Shown: piece after piece, positions 19,518 to 34,696 of the stretch
Layout of the letters: every line of letters starts with the position of its first letter
Numbering within the stretch: position 1 is the first letter of the stretch
NCBI GenBank assembly: GCA_938015655.1
Contig: CALLPP010000076.1
Span: forward strand, 1 to 43,707
Reading direction: 5' to 3'
DNA length: 43,707 bases
DNA from: an uncultured Algisphaera sp.
GTDB taxonomy: Bacteria > Planctomycetota > Phycisphaerae > Phycisphaerales > Phycisphaeraceae
Translations under genes and position numbers: made by a program
The notes under the pieces: generated by a model
Database searches by the model: none
What the model saw: only the letters and a program-made list of their open reading frames with translations
What the model was told of the DNA's origin: nothing

Positions 19518-21491
19518 ATGCTCAAGCTCACCATCGCAAAAAAATTGGTTCTCGGTTTCGGTCTCACCCTGACGTTGCTGATCGGTCTGGCCTTCCTGAG
19601 CTATACCAACAACGTCAAATCTGCACAGAGCATGGAAGCCGTCGCCGGCATGATCGAAGACGCCGCCACCGGAGGTCACGCCAGCGTCGACATGCTGATG
19701 GCGCGCATGAAAGTCAAAGATTTTCTCATCCGCAACCAGCCCCAAGACGTTCACGAGTACCACTCTTGGCGCGACAAACTGGCCGAAGCAACCGCCGAAA
19801 GCCGCGCAAACTTCAGCGACCACGGGCGCGTCGAGCGGCTCGACCAAATCGAAGTTCTTTTCGCAGAATACGACCGGGCGTTTGGCCAGGTCCAGACCAT
19901 CATCAACCAACGCAACGAACTGCGGTTCAGCGTGCTGGACACCGTGGGGCCGCAGATTTCCACGGCCATCAAGCAGGCGGCCGCTCAGCTGAGCAGCCGC
20001 GGGGAAGACCAGGCTGCCCAGCAGCTTCTCCCGGGCCTCTGGGACGCGCTCGAAGGCCGCTTGGCCGTGGTGAAGTTCATCTCCACATCCGACGAGCAAG
20101 AGTACAAAAAAGCCTCGGCCCTGCTCCAGGCCGCCCACCACGCCCTGACCGGCGCCACGTCCGCCGTGCAAGACCCCACCACCCAAAACCAGCTGGCCTC
20201 GGCCACCCAAAACCTCGCCCGCTACCTCGATGCCTTGAACCGGGTCCACGGCCTGGTCGTCCAGCGTAACACCCTGGTTCAGGGAACCCTGGACCGGATC
20301 GGACCCGAGATCGCCCGGTTGCAGATCGAGATCCAGGAGTCGCTGATCCACGACAGCCACGCCGCAGAGCAAGAGACCGAACAGGTCATCGCAAGCGCCA
20401 ACCGCACGATCCTCGCCGTCTCGGTGTTCGCCACCCTACTGGCCTCTTTCGCCGGATACCTGATCTACCGCGGCACGGTGGTGCCGCTCAAAGCGGTCAT
20501 CGAACGGGTGGGCGAAATCGCCGACGGCGACGGCGACCTCACCCACCGCGTCGATGACCAGCGGCACGACGAGTTGGGCGAGTTGGGCTCCAAAGTAAAC
20601 GCTTTTATCTCGCGCACCCACGACACAATCGCCACGGTCCGCGACGCCACGCTCTCCGTCACCGCCGCCGCGGACGAGATCCGCGGGAACGCCCAGTCCA
20701 TGGCCACCAACATGAACCGTCAGAACGAGCGAGCGGCCGACATCAGCCACGCCATCGAAGAAATGAACAAAGCCGTGGGCGACGTCGCCCGGCAGGCGGC
20801 CGACGCAAGTAGCACCTCGATTCGGGCCGGCGAAGCGGCCTCCAGCGGCGGCGAAATCGTCCACCAGACAATCACCGGCATGAGCACGCTCAGCGACGCG
20901 GTGAACGCCTCGGCCAGCAGCGTGACCGAGCTGGGCAAACGCAGCGCCCAGATCGGCGAAATCGTCGCGGTGATCAACGAGATCGCCGAGCAGACCAACT
21001 TGCTGGCACTCAACGCGGCCATCGAAGCGGCCCGCGCCGGCGAACACGGCCGCGGGTTTGCCGTCGTGGCCGACGAGGTGCGCAAGCTCGCCGACCGCAC
21101 CACCGAAGCCACGCAAGAAATCGGCCAATCGATCCGCGCGATACAAAATGAGACCTCCGACGCGGTCCAACGCATGGAAGTGGGCGCCGGCCAAGTCCAC
21201 GAAAGCGTGGACCTGGCCCACAAGGCCGGCTCATCGCTCAAGCTGATCGTCGAGAGTACCGACGAGGTTGCGGGCATGATCCACGCCATCGCGTCGGCCA
21301 CCGAAGAGCAGTCCGCCACCACCCTCCAGATCAGCCGTACCGTGGACGCCACCAGCGCGGCGATCCGTGACGCCTCTCAGGGCGCCGAGCAGAGCTTCGA
21401 AGCCGCCGCCCAGCTCACCCGCAAAGCCTCTGAACTTCACGAAATGATCAGTCGGTTCAAGCTGGCCCAAACCGTAGATTCCCGCTCTTGA
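19518..21491 (+). CDS. Methyl-accepting chemotaxis protein (large helical periplasmic sensor, HAMP, MCP signalling domain)
   Basis: TM helices near N-terminus and before [55 protein letters not shown] hairpin tip. Confidence 0.96.
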
Positions 21492-21888: not shown

Positions 21889-22941
21889 TTACTTCAGCTG
21901 CTGCCAGTAATCCATTGGCATGTCCATGGCCAGCTTCAGACCGCCGTTGCTGCCGCTGTAGAGCGGTTCTTCGACGACGGTGACCTTGGCCCCGCCGACG
22001 CGCTCGAGCTTGTCTTCGATGGCTTTGTTCAAACCCCGCATCAGGCCACCACCCCCGGCGAGGATAATGTTGTCGCGCAGGCGGTCCTGGAACTCGGGGT
22101 CGAAGGTGGCGATCAGCTTGTGGATGCCCTCGACGATGGGATCGATCAGAATCGAGCAGGCGTCGCGGATCTCATCGGTCACGTCGTGCATGGTGGGCTT
22201 GCCGTTGACCGGCATCTCGACCTCGATCTTGTCGGTGCCGCTGTGTACGAAGCCGTACTGCTCCTTAAAGCGCTTGATCATGTTCATGCTGACCGAGGCT
22301 TCGGGGTACTTTTTCTTGATGTTCTCCATCATCGCCTTGTCGACCGCGTCGCCGGCCACGTCAAGGCTCAACTGGTCATCCGGGCCGGGCACGGTGCCGT
22401 GCATCCGCACCAGGTCGGTGGTACCTGCGCCGATGTCCACCACCAGCACGTCGCTGGTGCGGTCCAGCCCGTAGGCCACGCAGAACGGCTCGGTACAGAT
22501 CATCACCGCATCGAAAATACCCTTGGTAACTTCGATGATGTCTTCTTTGTTTTTTCCGCTGGCTTCAGAGGGCACGCCCACCACGCCATAGACCTGCTCA
22601 CCGCGGGCGGGCTCAACCATCTCCACGAGGTAGTTGATCAGCTCTTTGGCGGCTTCGAGATTACGGCTACCGTCCTTATCCTCCTGGATGACCCCGACAC
22701 CCAACGGGCGGTACAGATCCAGGCTAAGGCGGTTGTCCAACGCATCTTTACCAAAAATGATATCGCGGCCGCCCAGGTGCTTGAGCGACACGGCATCCTT
22801 GGGCCAGCCGACGTACGACTCAACGTTCTTGCGCAGGCCGTTGGCAGCCGAAATGGCCGAGCGGCTGGTGCCCAGGTCGATGCCGATGAACAGGGCGTTC
22901 TCGGGCACGGCGCTGTCGTCGGTGGTTACGTTCTTGCTCAT
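21889..22941 (-). CDS. Actin-like ATPase, MamK-type (MreB/ParM superfamily)
   Basis: 350 aa; LFIGIDLGTSRSAISA phosphate-1, DVLVVDIGAGTTDLVRMHGTVPGPDDQ phosphate-2, NIILAGGGGLMRGLNKAIEDKL adenosine motif; start at MSKNVTTDD with AGGAGA upstream. Confidence 0.93.
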   Translation of the reverse strand: MSKNVTTDDSAVPENALFIGIDLGTSRSAISAANGLRKNVESYVGWPKDAVSLKHLGGRDIIFGKDALDNRLSLDLYRPLGVGVIQEDKDGSRNLEAAKELINYLVEMVEPARGEQVYGVVGVPSEASGKNKEDIIEVTKGIFDAVMICTEPFCVAYGLDRTSDVLVVDIGAGTTDLVRMHGTVPGPDDQLSLDVAGDAVDKAMMENIKKKYPEASVSMNMIKRFKEQYGFVHSGTDKIEVEMPVNGKPTMHDVTDEIRDACSILIDPIVEGIHKLIATFDPEFQDRLRDNIILAGGGGLMRGLNKAIEDKLERVGGAKVTVVEEPLYSGSNGGLKLAMDMPMDYWQQLK

Positions 22942-23149: not shown

Positions 23150-24013
23150 TCAATCGGGACGGGCGGCTTTCTTCGCGGCGTCTTTGGCCTTGGACTGAGC
23201 CGCCAGCCGTTTGGCCGCCTCGGACGGACCAGACTTGGCCGCCCCAGCGGCGGCCGCGATCGCCGCCGCCGCCCCGCCGCCACCGTGACGTTGGGCCGCA
23301 CCTTTTTGTAGCTTCACGTTGGTCTCGAAGATCTCTAGCAATACCTTGTCGTTCTTCGGGTCTTTAACCGACTTAATCATCGCCCCACGACGGCCGCCGC
23401 CACCACCGCCGCCGCCCCAGCCGCCGCCGCCTTTGCGAACCAGCGCTTTGAGCTCGGCCATCGACTTCTGCAGGTCCAGCACCATGTCAGTGAGCTGGCC
23501 CATCTGGGCGCTGGGGGTCCCCGCGGCTTGAGCCGCGGCCTGCCCCGGCGAGATCTCGCTGGTGAGGTTCTGGTTATCCCCGAACATCTTCGTCAGGGCT
23601 TCTTCGACCCGCTGAAGCGTCTGTTTTTCACCGCTGTCGCCGCCGCCGCCGGACAGCATCGCCTTGCTGACCACGCTCATCACGCGGTTACGGATCTTGT
23701 CGCGGTCGATCACCCGCACCCGCTGCCCGCGGTACTTGCGCCACAGGTCATCGACGTTCACCTGCGTCGAGCTGGTGTCGAGCGCCGAATCGATCGCGTG
23801 GGTGAAATCGTCGCTCTCAGCGGCGGGTCCGCCCGGAGACGGCACGGCCTCGGTCCCGGTGAAGTCCCCTAGGCGGGGGTCTTCGCGAAGCGACTCGCAG
23901 ACAATGTTGTTATTGCCCATCAGGGTGTAGGCCTGATCGACCGACGGGGCCTCGACGTGACCCTCGACCGGTTTCCCGGTGTCGCGCATTAAGCCTCGGA
24001 AGCGGTATCTCAA
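23150..24013 (-). CDS. Unknown protein with N-terminal GspF/PilC-N-like module, Gly-rich linker and Ala/Lys-rich tail; co-directional with and upstream of the actin-like gene
   Basis: (TTG start) YRFRGLMRDTGKPVEGHVEAPSVDQAYTLMGNNNIV; KGGGGWGGGGGGGGRRG; C-terminal AAKRLAAQSKAKDAAKKAARPD. Confidence 0.75.
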   Translation of the reverse strand: MRYRFRGLMRDTGKPVEGHVEAPSVDQAYTLMGNNNIVCESLREDPRLGDFTGTEAVPSPGGPAAESDDFTHAIDSALDTSSTQVNVDDLWRKYRGQRVRVIDRDKIRNRVMSVVSKAMLSGGGGDSGEKQTLQRVEEALTKMFGDNQNLTSEISPGQAAAQAAGTPSAQMGQLTDMVLDLQKSMAELKALVRKGGGGWGGGGGGGGRRGAMIKSVKDPKNDKVLLEIFETNVKLQKGAAQRHGGGGAAAAIAAAAGAAKSGPSEAAKRLAAQSKAKDAAKKAARPD

Positions 24014-30773: not shown

Positions 30774-32714
30774 ATGACCCTCCGCCTCAAACTGATCTTC
30801 GTTGGTCTCACCGCGGTCACCCTCATGGCCGCGACCGAGTTCGCCATCCAGCGTGCGGTCATCTCACCGCTCTTCACAGAGCTTGAGCGTGACGAAGCAA
30901 TCAAAGACATCACACGGTGCCGCGAGGCCATCGATCGCGAGATCCATCACCTCGAAGTGCTTTGCCTTGATTGGTCGAACTGGACCGACACCTACGAGTA
31001 CGTCCAAGGCATCGGCACCGAGGCCTACGACGAAGCCAACCTAATGCAAGTTGGGTGGTACCAAGCCACCAACGTGGGGCTTATGTACATCGCCAGGCGC
31101 GACGGGACCCTGGCCCACACCTACCTCGCCGGCGACGCTGCCGACGAAGACGACAACCTCCTGCCCCCCGTCCCGGCCGACGACGACGCCCTGCCCCGTG
31201 ATCGACTGGATCCGGACCACGCGCTACTGGCGCTGACCGACCACGAAGACTCGCTGGTTTCGGGCCTGATGATGACTCCGCGCGGCCCGCTGCTGGTGGC
31301 CAGCCGCCCCATCCTCACCAGCGAATCCGAAGGGCCACGGACCGGCGCCATGATCATCGGACGATTCCTCGACGCCGATCAGATCAGCCGGCTCAACGAA
31401 CAGACGAAAGTGCAGTTCACCGCGGGCCAAACCTCCGAAGACACCCCCCCGCGGAGCAACATCGAACCGACAATCGAAACCATCGATCAAGACACCCTGC
31501 ACGTGCTGGCCGCCATGCCACAACTCAACGGCGCGCCCGGACTCACGCTCAAGGCCCAAGTTGATCGCGAAATCACCGGCCGCGGCCGCCAGGCACTGGG
31601 CTACGCCCGGGCCGCCCAAGCCGTCGCGGCAGCCGGCGTGCTGTTGCTGCTGGCCTTCGCTTTACAACGCGTCGTCGTCGGCCCGCTCTCGCGGCTCACC
31701 CGACACGCCGACCGCGTCGCCGAAAACGAAGACCTCACCGTCCGCATGGATCTGGATCGGCGCGACGAGATCGGAACCCTCGCCCGCGGCTTCGACCACA
31801 TGCTTGATCAGTTGGAGCACTCCCGTGCCCGGCTCGCCGACCACGCCCGCCACACCGGCCGGGCCGAGGCCGCCAGCGGCGTGCTGCACAACGTGGGGAA
31901 CGTGCTGACCAGCGTCACCGCCCTCACCAGTTCCCTGCGTGACCACACCAACAACAGCCGCACCGAACGCCTGGCGCAAAGTGCCGAGCTCCTGCAGCAA
32001 CACGACCACGACCTTCCGGCGTTTCTGACGTCTGACCCCCGCGGCCAGCGCCTCCCGTCTTACTTACAAAAGCTCTGCCATCAGATGGCCAGCGACGAAA
32101 AGGATCTGCACAACCGCATCGAAACCCTTGGCGGTTGTATCAACCACCTGCAAGAACTCGTCGCCTCCCAGGCTGATCTTGCCGGGCCCGCCACGGTCGA
32201 CGAACCCATCAGCGTCGCCCGGATGCTCGATCAGGTCGCGGCGAACACCCGCCCCGCCTTCGAAGCCGCGGGCATCACGCTCGGCCTGCACTGCGAAACC
32301 ATGCCTACTTTGGTGCTGGATCGACGCAAGCTCAGCCAGGTCTTGGTCAATGTGCTAACCAACGCCCACGACGCCGTGAACCAACAAGGCAGCTCCCAAG
32401 AAGCGCGCCAAGTCGATCTGACCGCCACACACGAAGGCGACCACCTGGTCTTCACCGTTCGCGACAACGGAATCGGCATCGCTCCAGAACTAATCGAACG
32501 CATTTTCTCTGACGGCTTCACCACCAAACCCGCCACCAATGATCGGGGACGCGGCATGGGCCTTCACTACTGTGCAATCTCCGCCATCGAAATGGGAGGC
32601 CGGCTGAGCGCCACCAGCGAAGGGCCCGGACAGGGCGCCTGCTTCCGCCTGGAAATCCCGTGGCACGAGCACGCGGGTCGTACCGATACCAACCCCGCCG
32701 GAGAACCGGCATGA
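30774..32714 (+). CDS. CHASE4-HAMP sensor histidine kinase
   Basis: N-terminal TM, LEVLCLDWSNWTDTYEYVQ (CHASE4-like), HAMP (RLTRHADRVAENEDLTVRMDLDRRDEIGTLARGFDHML), GVLHNVGNVLTSV H-box, DNGIGI...GRGMGLHY HATPase. Confidence 0.93.
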   Translation: MTLRLKLIFVGLTAVTLMAATEFAIQRAVISPLFTELERDEAIKDITRCREAIDREIHHLEVLCLDWSNWTDTYEYVQGIGTEAYDEANLMQVGWYQATNVGLMYIARRDGTLAHTYLAGDAADEDDNLLPPVPADDDALPRDRLDPDHALLALTDHEDSLVSGLMMTPRGPLLVASRPILTSESEGPRTGAMIIGRFLDADQISRLNEQTKVQFTAGQTSEDTPPRSNIEPTIETIDQDTLHVLAAMPQLNGAPGLTLKAQVDREITGRGRQALGYARAAQAVAAAGVLLLLAFALQRVVVGPLSRLTRHADRVAENEDLTVRMDLDRRDEIGTLARGFDHMLDQLEHSRARLADHARHTGRAEAASGVLHNVGNVLTSVTALTSSLRDHTNNSRTERLAQSAELLQQHDHDLPAFLTSDPRGQRLPSYLQKLCHQMASDEKDLHNRIETLGGCINHLQELVASQADLAGPATVDEPISVARMLDQVAANTRPAFEAAGITLGLHCETMPTLVLDRRKLSQVLVNVLTNAHDAVNQQGSSQEARQVDLTATHEGDHLVFTVRDNGIGIAPELIERIFSDGFTTKPATNDRGRGMGLHYCAISAIEMGGRLSATSEGPGQGACFRLEIPWHEHAGRTDTNPAGEPA

Positions 32715-34696
32715 GCCCCGGCTTCGACGCCCCCCCGGGGGCAAACCCCACACCGAACCCCCAAGTCCTGGTCGTAGACGACCAGGCCAGCGTTCACCTG
32801 GCCTTCTCCGAGGTTTTCGCGGCCCAGCAAACCGCATCGGAACTCGAAGAAGACGAACAGGTTTTGTTCGGCCACACGGACGCCAGCCCGCCAGCCAACG
32901 GACCGGTCGGCCATCCGCCCGTGTCCCTGGATTTCGCCTTCCAAGGGGAAGAAGCCCTGCAAAAGGTCCAAGATCGGGCCAACGCGAACCAGCGCTACGA
33001 CGTAGTTTTTGTCGATATGCGGATGCCTCCGGGTATCGGCGGCGAGGAGACGATCCGTCGCATCTGGGAAATCGATCCGGACCTACACGTCGTGTGCTGC
33101 ACGGCCTATTCCGACGACGACCTGAGCAGCGTGATGCAGCGGCTGGGGCACGCGGATCAGCTGGTGTTGCTAAAAAAACCCTTCGACCCCGCCGAAGCCC
33201 GCCAGCTCGTGGCTGCACTTACCGGCAAAGGTGAGCTCCGCCGGCAGGCCCAGCGTCACGCCCGGGCGCTGCAGGCCAACGCCCAAGAACTCACGCTCGC
33301 CAATCGCGAACTCAAAAAACAGATCCAGCGCCGCGGGGAAGCCGAAGCCCGGCTACACCACCAAGCCACCCACGACACGCTCACCGGCCTGCACAACCGC
33401 CAGGCGTTTGATCACCACCTGGCAAACTGCTTCGATTCTCTTAATGAAGCCGCCGACACACACTTCGCGGTGGTCTACATCGACCTGGACGATTTTAAAA
33501 TCGTGAACGACACCCTGGGCCACCCGGTGGGCGATCGCCTGCTGACCACCGTGGCCCGGCGCCTCGAAGCCGAGCTCCAGGCCACCCACGACGATGCCTT
33601 TCCCGAATCCAGCGGCCGCTTCGCCGCCCGGCTGGGAGGAGACGAGTTCGTCGTACTGCTTGACGGCCTGCACGCCCCTGAGCAGGCCTACCACATGGCC
33701 GAGCGTCTGCTGGCTGCAGTCTCAGGCCCGGTCCAGCTCGACGGTATGCAGCAACAGGTAAGCGTCAGTATCGGGGTGGCCACCGGCGACCGGCACTGCG
33801 CAGACCGCAACGACGTTTTACGCCACGCCGACATGGCGATGTACCAGGCCAAGCGCGGCGGGCGGAACGGTTACGCAGTCTTCGACGAAGCCATGTTTGT
33901 GTCCCAACGCGACCACATCGAACTGCTCGCAGACCTGCGGCGGGGTATCGATCAAGAGCAAATCACGCTGGTGTACCAGCCGATCGTCAGCGTGCCGGAT
34001 ATGAAACTGGTCTCGGTCGAGGCCCTGGCCCGCTGGGAGCGTCCCGGCCACGGGCCAGTCGGCCCGGACGTCTTCATCCCCGCGGCCGAAGAGGCCGGGC
34101 TGATCGTCGCCCTGGGTGACTCGGTGCTGCGGCGGGCCTGCGCACAGCTGGCCACGTGGCGGGCCCACCCCGGACCGGGCACCCCCCGGGCGGTCAGCGT
34201 GAACGTCGCGCTCAAACAGCTGCTGCAGTGCGACTTTGTCGACAAGCTCGCGGCACTGGTCACCGAGTTCGACATCAGCCCCGGCGAGCTGCGCATCGAA
34301 CTGACCGAGTCCACCATCATGGACGAGACCATCGACATCCAGCGGGTGCTCCACGCCGCCCGCGAGCTGGGCGTGCGGGTACACCTGGACGACTTTGGCA
34401 CCGGCTACTCGTCGCTGAGCGCCCTGCACCGCTTCCCCATCGACGTACTCAAAATCGACCAGTCGTTTATGCGGGCGGTCGAGACCAACCCGCGCCACGC
34501 TGCAATCGTGCGCACCATCAGCGACCTGGCTCACCACCTGGGGTTCTCGGTGGTCATCGAGGGCGTGGAAGACAGCGCCCAGGCCGCCGCGGTCAACCGC
34601 TGGGGATGCGACTTCGCCCAGGGCTATCACTACGGCCGCCCCCGCAAGACCGAAACCTACCAACCCCAAGGCGTGGTGATCAACCGCTCGGCATAA
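32711..34696 (+). CDS. Response regulator with REC, GGDEF and EAL domains
   Basis: QVLVVDDQ...DVVFVDMRMPP...LLKKPF; RLGGDEFVVLL; SVEALARWERPGHG; DDFGTGYSSLSALHRFPIDVLKIDQSF; ATGA overlap with the upstream kinase. Confidence 0.95.
   Translation: MSPGFDAPPGANPTPNPQVLVVDDQASVHLAFSEVFAAQQTASELEEDEQVLFGHTDASPPANGPVGHPPVSLDFAFQGEEALQKVQDRANANQRYDVVFVDMRMPPGIGGEETIRRIWEIDPDLHVVCCTAYSDDDLSSVMQRLGHADQLVLLKKPFDPAEARQLVAALTGKGELRRQAQRHARALQANAQELTLANRELKKQIQRRGEAEARLHHQATHDTLTGLHNRQAFDHHLANCFDSLNEAADTHFAVVYIDLDDFKIVNDTLGHPVGDRLLTTVARRLEAELQATHDDAFPESSGRFAARLGGDEFVVLLDGLHAPEQAYHMAERLLAAVSGPVQLDGMQQQVSVSIGVATGDRHCADRNDVLRHADMAMYQAKRGGRNGYAVFDEAMFVSQRDHIELLADLRRGIDQEQITLVYQPIVSVPDMKLVSVEALARWERPGHGPVGPDVFIPAAEEAGLIVALGDSVLRRACAQLATWRAHPGPGTPRAVSVNVALKQLLQCDFVDKLAALVTEFDISPGELRIELTESTIMDETIDIQRVLHAARELGVRVHLDDFGTGYSSLSALHRFPIDVLKIDQSFMRAVETNPRHAAIVRTISDLAHHLGFSVVIEGVEDSAQAAAVNRWGCDFAQGYHYGRPRKTETYQPQGVVINRSA

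Follow-up and report, generated by a model that had tools for sequence, protein, structure and literature searches.

MamK is the model of organelle-positioning actins in bacteria, and a gene for a MamK-like protein in a planctomycete of the class Phycisphaerae raises the question of whether it belongs to a magnetosome and, if not, what else its filament might serve. The gene lies on a contig of 43,707 nucleotides, the whole of which is the window analysed here, from a MAG (219 contigs, 78% complete). The first-pass annotation described a MamK-type actin at 21889-22941. The peptide blocks that it quoted are present, but it overlooked the strand: the 350-residue product (MSKNVTTDD...YWQQLK) is encoded on the minus strand from 22941 to 21892, with the stop codon at 21891-21889, and the plus-strand frame of the same interval does not encode it. 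The open frame of the gene reaches upstream to 23052 (387 residues), but translation probably starts at MSKNV, close to where the relatives begin.

The resemblance to MamK rather than to MreB or plasmid ParM is borne out by curated models, structures and phylogeny. The NCBIfam MamK model (NF040964) gives the protein 408.9 bits, above its cut-off of 400. The second-best models, BeeR (NF053558; 225 bits against a cut-off of 530) and MreB (84 bits), stay below their own cut-offs, the ParM model reaches 28 of 417 bits, and the PilM and FtsA models are far below theirs. In a PDB search the MamK chains of AMB-1 come first (E=1.3e-83 to 1.7e-82), followed by BeeR (8r2n, 1.8e-46) and then MreB (1.6e-17); identity to the AMB-1 MamK (5jyg, 5ljv, 5ljw) is about 40%. 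The nucleotide-site motifs DLGTS, TEPF, DIGAGTTD and GGG, which are the same in both, are intact, and a distinct, ordinary MreB is encoded on another contig of the same genome (C24, 467 bits). Nothing in the PDB ranking, the NCBIfam scores or the tree places the protein with DnaK, PilM, FtsA or MreB, and as judged from its sequence it belongs to the MamK family. One residue was considered as a sign of lost function. The A278 mutant of AMB-1 MamK is reportedly non-polymerising, and the window protein has Asp at the equivalent position (in the AMB-1 structures this position is D in the 5ljw chain and A in 5jyg and 5ljv). The suggestion that the window protein therefore forms no filaments was rejected and nothing is concluded from this residue, since Asp or Glu occurs naturally there in several magnetotactic MamKs.

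The non-magnetosome context is supported by searches of the window and of whole genomes. A MamK-family match above the NF040964 cut-off is found in 14 of 400 genomes of the class. The genome-wide search was confined to the MamI, MamQ and MamB models, with accessions taken via the Magnetospirillum mam operon (L122). All four magnetotactic control genomes are positive with MamI and MamB. MamQ was rejected as uninformative, because non-magnetotactic control genomes also match and its matches are thus LemA-like background. No mam-type gene is recognised among the scanned window proteins, as the first-pass annotation had stated. The wider search that it had proposed finds no match to the MamI and MamB models in the host's own genome (78% complete) or in two sister carriers that are both 99% complete (G002 and G005, of 6 and 2 contigs respectively). 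At 1e-5, no MamB-like transporter is detected in G000, G001, G002 or G005, in none of which the MamI and MamB models reveal a magnetosome gene cluster, and no MamI match better than E=0.037 occurs in the carriers tested other than G417. The latter, from the same class but another family, has MamI (2.6e-17), a MamQ-like gene and two genes of MamB/M type (1e-67 and 1e-72), all on the contig that carries its MamK; this planctomycete is evidently magnetotactic and was used as the internal control. The window actin is thus a MamK-family member in a non-magnetosome setting. Such actins were known before, since BeeR (PMC11929497) and Bbp (PMC10580974) were both reported from non-magnetotactic bacteria, reports that the first-pass annotation overlooked, and the Phycisphaerae clade adds to them. 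A MamK annotation alone is thus no proof of magnetotaxis.

The phylogeny was built from 84 sequences including MreB and BeeR; FtsA, ParM and crenactin, which score very low against the window actin, were left out. MreB separates at 100/100 support, the BeeR end branch has a length of 3.55, and the window actin is one of the 15 rows of a Phycisphaerae clade (99/98) amid MamK-type actins, away from both. The known magnetotactic MamKs occupy at least three separate places, and forcing the magnetotactic rows into one clade costs 293 log-likelihood units, so that a single clade is marginally rejected (AU p=0.033). The non-magnetotactic rows represent Planctomycetota, Nitrospirota, Desulfobulbaceae, Acidobacteriota, Thiotrichaceae and Poseidoniales archaea. 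The actin of the magnetotactic planctomycete G417 (L053) clusters with L064 and L077, apart from the Phycisphaerae clade. L077 (8966-11011) is itself from a Phycisphaerae MAG; its MamK and partner are closest to those of the magnetotactic L053 and L064, and mam genes are absent within 10 kb of its MamK.

Two published actins are the nearest non-magnetosome comparisons. Bbp, the 'big bacteria protein', was described from Ca. Electrothrix gigas, Thiomargarita and Beggiatoa (PMC10580974) and is likewise a MamK-like actin of mostly non-magnetotactic bacteria. By host it corresponds to a clade that contains Beggiatoa, Thiomargarita, Parabeggiatoa and Thiohalocapsa. The Bbp-host rows L092, L096, L101 and L104 with L100, L110 and L117 form a separate 100/100 clade to which the window actin does not belong; these rows are assigned by host, Bbp itself being outside the tree. 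BeeR, from Verrucomicrobiota (PMC11929497), is the bacterial actin nearest to MamK, but it is much more distant from the window actin, which does not belong to its family, and it forms a three-stranded tube and has a long N-terminal extension. No relatives were found in viral contigs.

Magnetotactic planctomycetes exist, including one in this class, and MamK belongs to every magnetosome cluster, so the window actin could be the relic of a lost cluster, retained with one neighbour and with no specific present role. The separate clade of the 15 Phycisphaerae sequences, away from L053, speaks against such a relic, although the rejection of a single magnetotactic clade is no more than marginal; a relic also does not predict that the nucleotide-site motifs stay intact and a partner gene is kept across many genera. 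We consider this origin improbable.

Several further rows deserve mention. The actin of L047 (G114 contig C102, family f11) groups with those of the window's genus (99/97), by horizontal transfer or as a contaminating contig. Most of L105-L133 are marine Poseidoniales archaea whose MamK-like actins share about 40% identity; in two isolates there are two divergent copies each (L111 and L127; L114 and L121). L120 carries the title Verrucomicrobiales but appears to be an archaeal contig that was misbinned.

A gene overlooked by the first-pass annotation (24013-23150, minus strand, about 287 residues) precedes the actin gene directly in the same orientation. Homologues of this partner, a proposed adaptor, stand upstream of the actin in 14 of 16 loci of the class; in the other two, L047 is cut by the contig end and L053 has a PAS coiled-coil protein instead. 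The partner profile finds 12 of the 400 genomes, all within the 14 MamK carriers (E<=1e-87), and its only other match in the 400 covers 54 residues of the N-terminus. The pairing is strict (Fisher p=3e-21 over 400 genomes, relatedness not corrected for), and other neighbours are hardly conserved beyond near-identical relatives. Neither Pfam nor NCBIfam has a match for the partner, the PDB has none of substance, and no membrane helix is predicted. The MamJ-MamK pair of Magnetospirillum is arranged similarly, with the gene of the adaptor immediately preceding that of the actin, as L122 shows, but MamJ has no similarity to the window partner, and the MamJ model (NF040987) matches none of the 14 partners tested. 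Carriers of the window type thus differ from magnetosome systems in their separate actin clade, in the lack of MamI/MamB-type genes and in a non-MamJ partner directly upstream.

An operon of an actin and an adaptor is also the classical type II layout of DNA segregation, in which a ParM-type actin would move DNA and the partner would be the DNA-binding adaptor on a centromere-like repeat. The features of that type, a plasmid location and centromere-like repeats, are not found: the genes of G002 and G005 are chromosomal because the contigs that carry them measure 4.1 and 3.8 Mb, and around the genes there is no iteron array, just GCC repeats of low complexity and pairs due to chance. Plasmid segregation is unlikely on both counts, and with the low ParM score and no DNA-binding domain recognised in the partner we regard this reading as very improbable.

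The partner itself appears to be modular. Residues 1-45 (23879..24013, minus strand) form a beta-beta-alpha-beta mini-domain, a possible cargo or target end, and residues ~67-150 (23564..23815, minus strand; RYRGQRVRVIDRDKIRNRV) a middle domain with a mean majority conservation of 0.63 in the clade, which is helical in the model at low confidence and whose pattern recurs, by eye, in other Planctomycetota partners. When the window partner is modelled alone, pLDDT is about 93 over residues 1-40 and uncertain helices make up the rest. Profile comparison gives the mini-domain a weak similarity to the N-terminus of GspF (hhalign probability 54, E 1.3e-4), and a fold search returns small generic folds only, none with E under 0.08; an identification of the mini-domain by either route was rejected on these grounds. 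An N-terminus like the mini-domain also occurs on a different, apparently membrane-bound protein (L159:1404-2057) in G293, a genome with no MamK-like gene.

Near the C-terminus of the partner, at residues 222-237 (23303..23350, minus strand; DKVLLEIFETNVKLQK), lies a block in which V, L, I, F and N are invariant in 14 partners and mean conservation is 0.74, compared with about 0.5 in its flanks. It corresponds to a short amphipathic helix, [VL]LxxIFxxN[LVI]xL, which is proposed here as a filament-docking motif. The same motif recurs in PAS or coiled-coil partners of magnetotactic bacteria, including the magnetotactic planctomycete (KTMLENVFRQNVVLQK) and an Omnitrophota member that is also magnetotactic (QTLLANIFRQNLAIQK), and in a second Planctomycetota partner family. 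It also stands at the N-terminus of amidases adjoining MamK-like genes in Nitrospirota, Desulfobulbaceae and Acidobacteriota (e.g., QDILKGVFEDNLRIIG), and small membrane proteins with coiled coils in the probable Bbp clade have it at their C-terminus (MAMLKGIMDDNLKLRN). Once the motif is masked, BLAST puts these scaffolds in separate groups, and they show no detectable relation to the window's partner. In terminal position it is absent from MamJ (L122), the L129 partner, amidases L098 and L099 and several other upstream genes; the Poseidoniales upstream genes show no clear motif, and a weak look-alike occurs in a downstream gene.

A profile trained solely on partners of the window type gives the 48 upstream genes that were held out much higher scores than 2255 distant ORFs from those loci (Mann-Whitney p=3e-19; this and the following motif p-values are nominal because homologous partners are not independent), and a stringent score is passed by 14 of the 48 and by 3 of the 2255. 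A second profile, trained on two Planctomycetota partner types and scored on held-out scaffolds, gives 1e-13 for amidases, 2e-9 for Bbp-side coiled-coil proteins and 4e-6 for magnetotactic partners. Coiled-coil proteins are common beside MamK-like genes and some partners have no motif, which would fit a generic amphipathic helix that ends coiled coils, so that the pairing is real but the motif is no docking site. Shuffled partners pass the thresholds in 0.3% (at the stringent score) to 4.6% of cases, compared with 29 to 56% of real ones, and the amidase motif is N-terminal, away from any coiled coil; a generic helix is therefore an unlikely explanation. A common tail peptide on unrelated neighbours in many phyla instead suggests, at the level of sequence, one docking tag for different loads. 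In the open-access papers searched we found no report of a paired adaptor with a motif common to several scaffolds.

The predicted topologies are compatible with such docking. In the amidase partners the motif is followed by a membrane helix and then by Amidase_3, and is therefore predicted to be cytoplasmic, on the side of the actin; the probable Bbp-side proteins have a membrane helix close to the N-terminus and end in the motif. Either layout is compatible with a motif in the cytoplasm, where the actin is. Upstream amidases occur at L075, L080, L084, L085, L086, L087, L088 and L091, with Amidase_3 confirmed in L075, L084 and L087, and they may link the actin filament to cell-wall hydrolysis. 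A natural amidase-actin fusion considered in L103 was rejected, the long upstream open frame being out-of-frame sequence. In the probable Bbp-clade loci L100, L101, L110, L092 and L117 the upstream neighbour is a small coiled-coil protein, mostly with a membrane helix, that ends in the motif and is a candidate partner of Bbp; the partner in the window, by contrast, is soluble and unrelated in its body, and its actin belongs to another clade and a planctomycete host.

Structure prediction fits docking as well. In L048 the partner and actin genes are in frame with one stop codon between them, and the two were folded as one chain with the stop read as glycine. The motif block has a mean pLDDT of 88 in this joined chain, between linkers of 30-40, against about 66 in the window partner alone, a comparison of different proteins and alignments in which contacts are not visible; the higher value would agree with docking on the actin.

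These data make it probable, on balance, that the two genes form a chromosomal filament-and-adaptor module in which the motif docks the adaptor on the filament. The product of the second gene would be an actin of the MamK family, which most likely assembles into filaments with ATP, as we infer from knowledge of the family and the intact site motifs. The first would encode a soluble adaptor consisting of the mini-domain, the middle domain, a helical region, a glycine-rich linker and the motif helix, with the first two binding a putative load and the last holding the adaptor on the actin filament. Because the same helix is found on other scaffolds in other phyla, the family resembles a single filament whose adaptors can be exchanged, and magnetosome chains may be one of its uses.

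Other members of the family hint at one possible load. The filament could be a scaffold for cell size, shape or envelope, its adaptor anchoring envelope or secretion machinery; this would be a choice of load and not a different mechanism. Bbp is associated with large cells (PMC10580974), the amidases that adjoin MamK-like actins in three lineages are membrane-anchored N-acetylmuramoyl-L-alanine amidases, and the mini-domain faintly resembles the GspF N-terminus. As that similarity is weak and the window partner has neither a recognised amidase domain nor a membrane helix, an envelope load is possible but rather doubtful here. The exchangeable-adaptor module may have a wider meaning: MamK would belong to a wide actin family, spread over numerous bacterial phyla and perhaps archaea, in which one docking peptide serves varied adaptors. 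These would include magnetosome scaffolds, the soluble adaptors of planctomycetes, the membrane coiled coils next to Bbp, and amidases linking a cytoplasmic filament through the membrane to the wall, with magnetosome chains as a specialised use of an older cargo filament, a view that we hold tentatively and with somewhat less than even confidence. The peptide, common to unrelated neighbours of MamK-like genes inside and outside magnetosome clusters, is a testable candidate for the element by which the filament recognises its load; it also offers candidate partners for Bbp and suggests that filaments may be coupled through the membrane to amidases of the cell wall.

Other genes at these loci are recorded for completeness. 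A methyl-accepting chemotaxis protein gene (19518-21491) is convergent with the actin gene in the window, but a functional link between the two was rejected, the gene being absent there in the closest, 97%-identical relative (G001). At L094 (9944-11605, titled Methanoperedens) the gene after a MamK-like actin encodes a protein that has an archaellum domain (Arch_fla_DE) and, at its C-terminal end, a motif-like stretch (NNMYRDLMDQNIRLKK). Farther along the window, 30774-34696 encodes a CHASE4-HAMP sensor histidine kinase and then, by eye, a receiver-GGDEF-EAL-like regulator.
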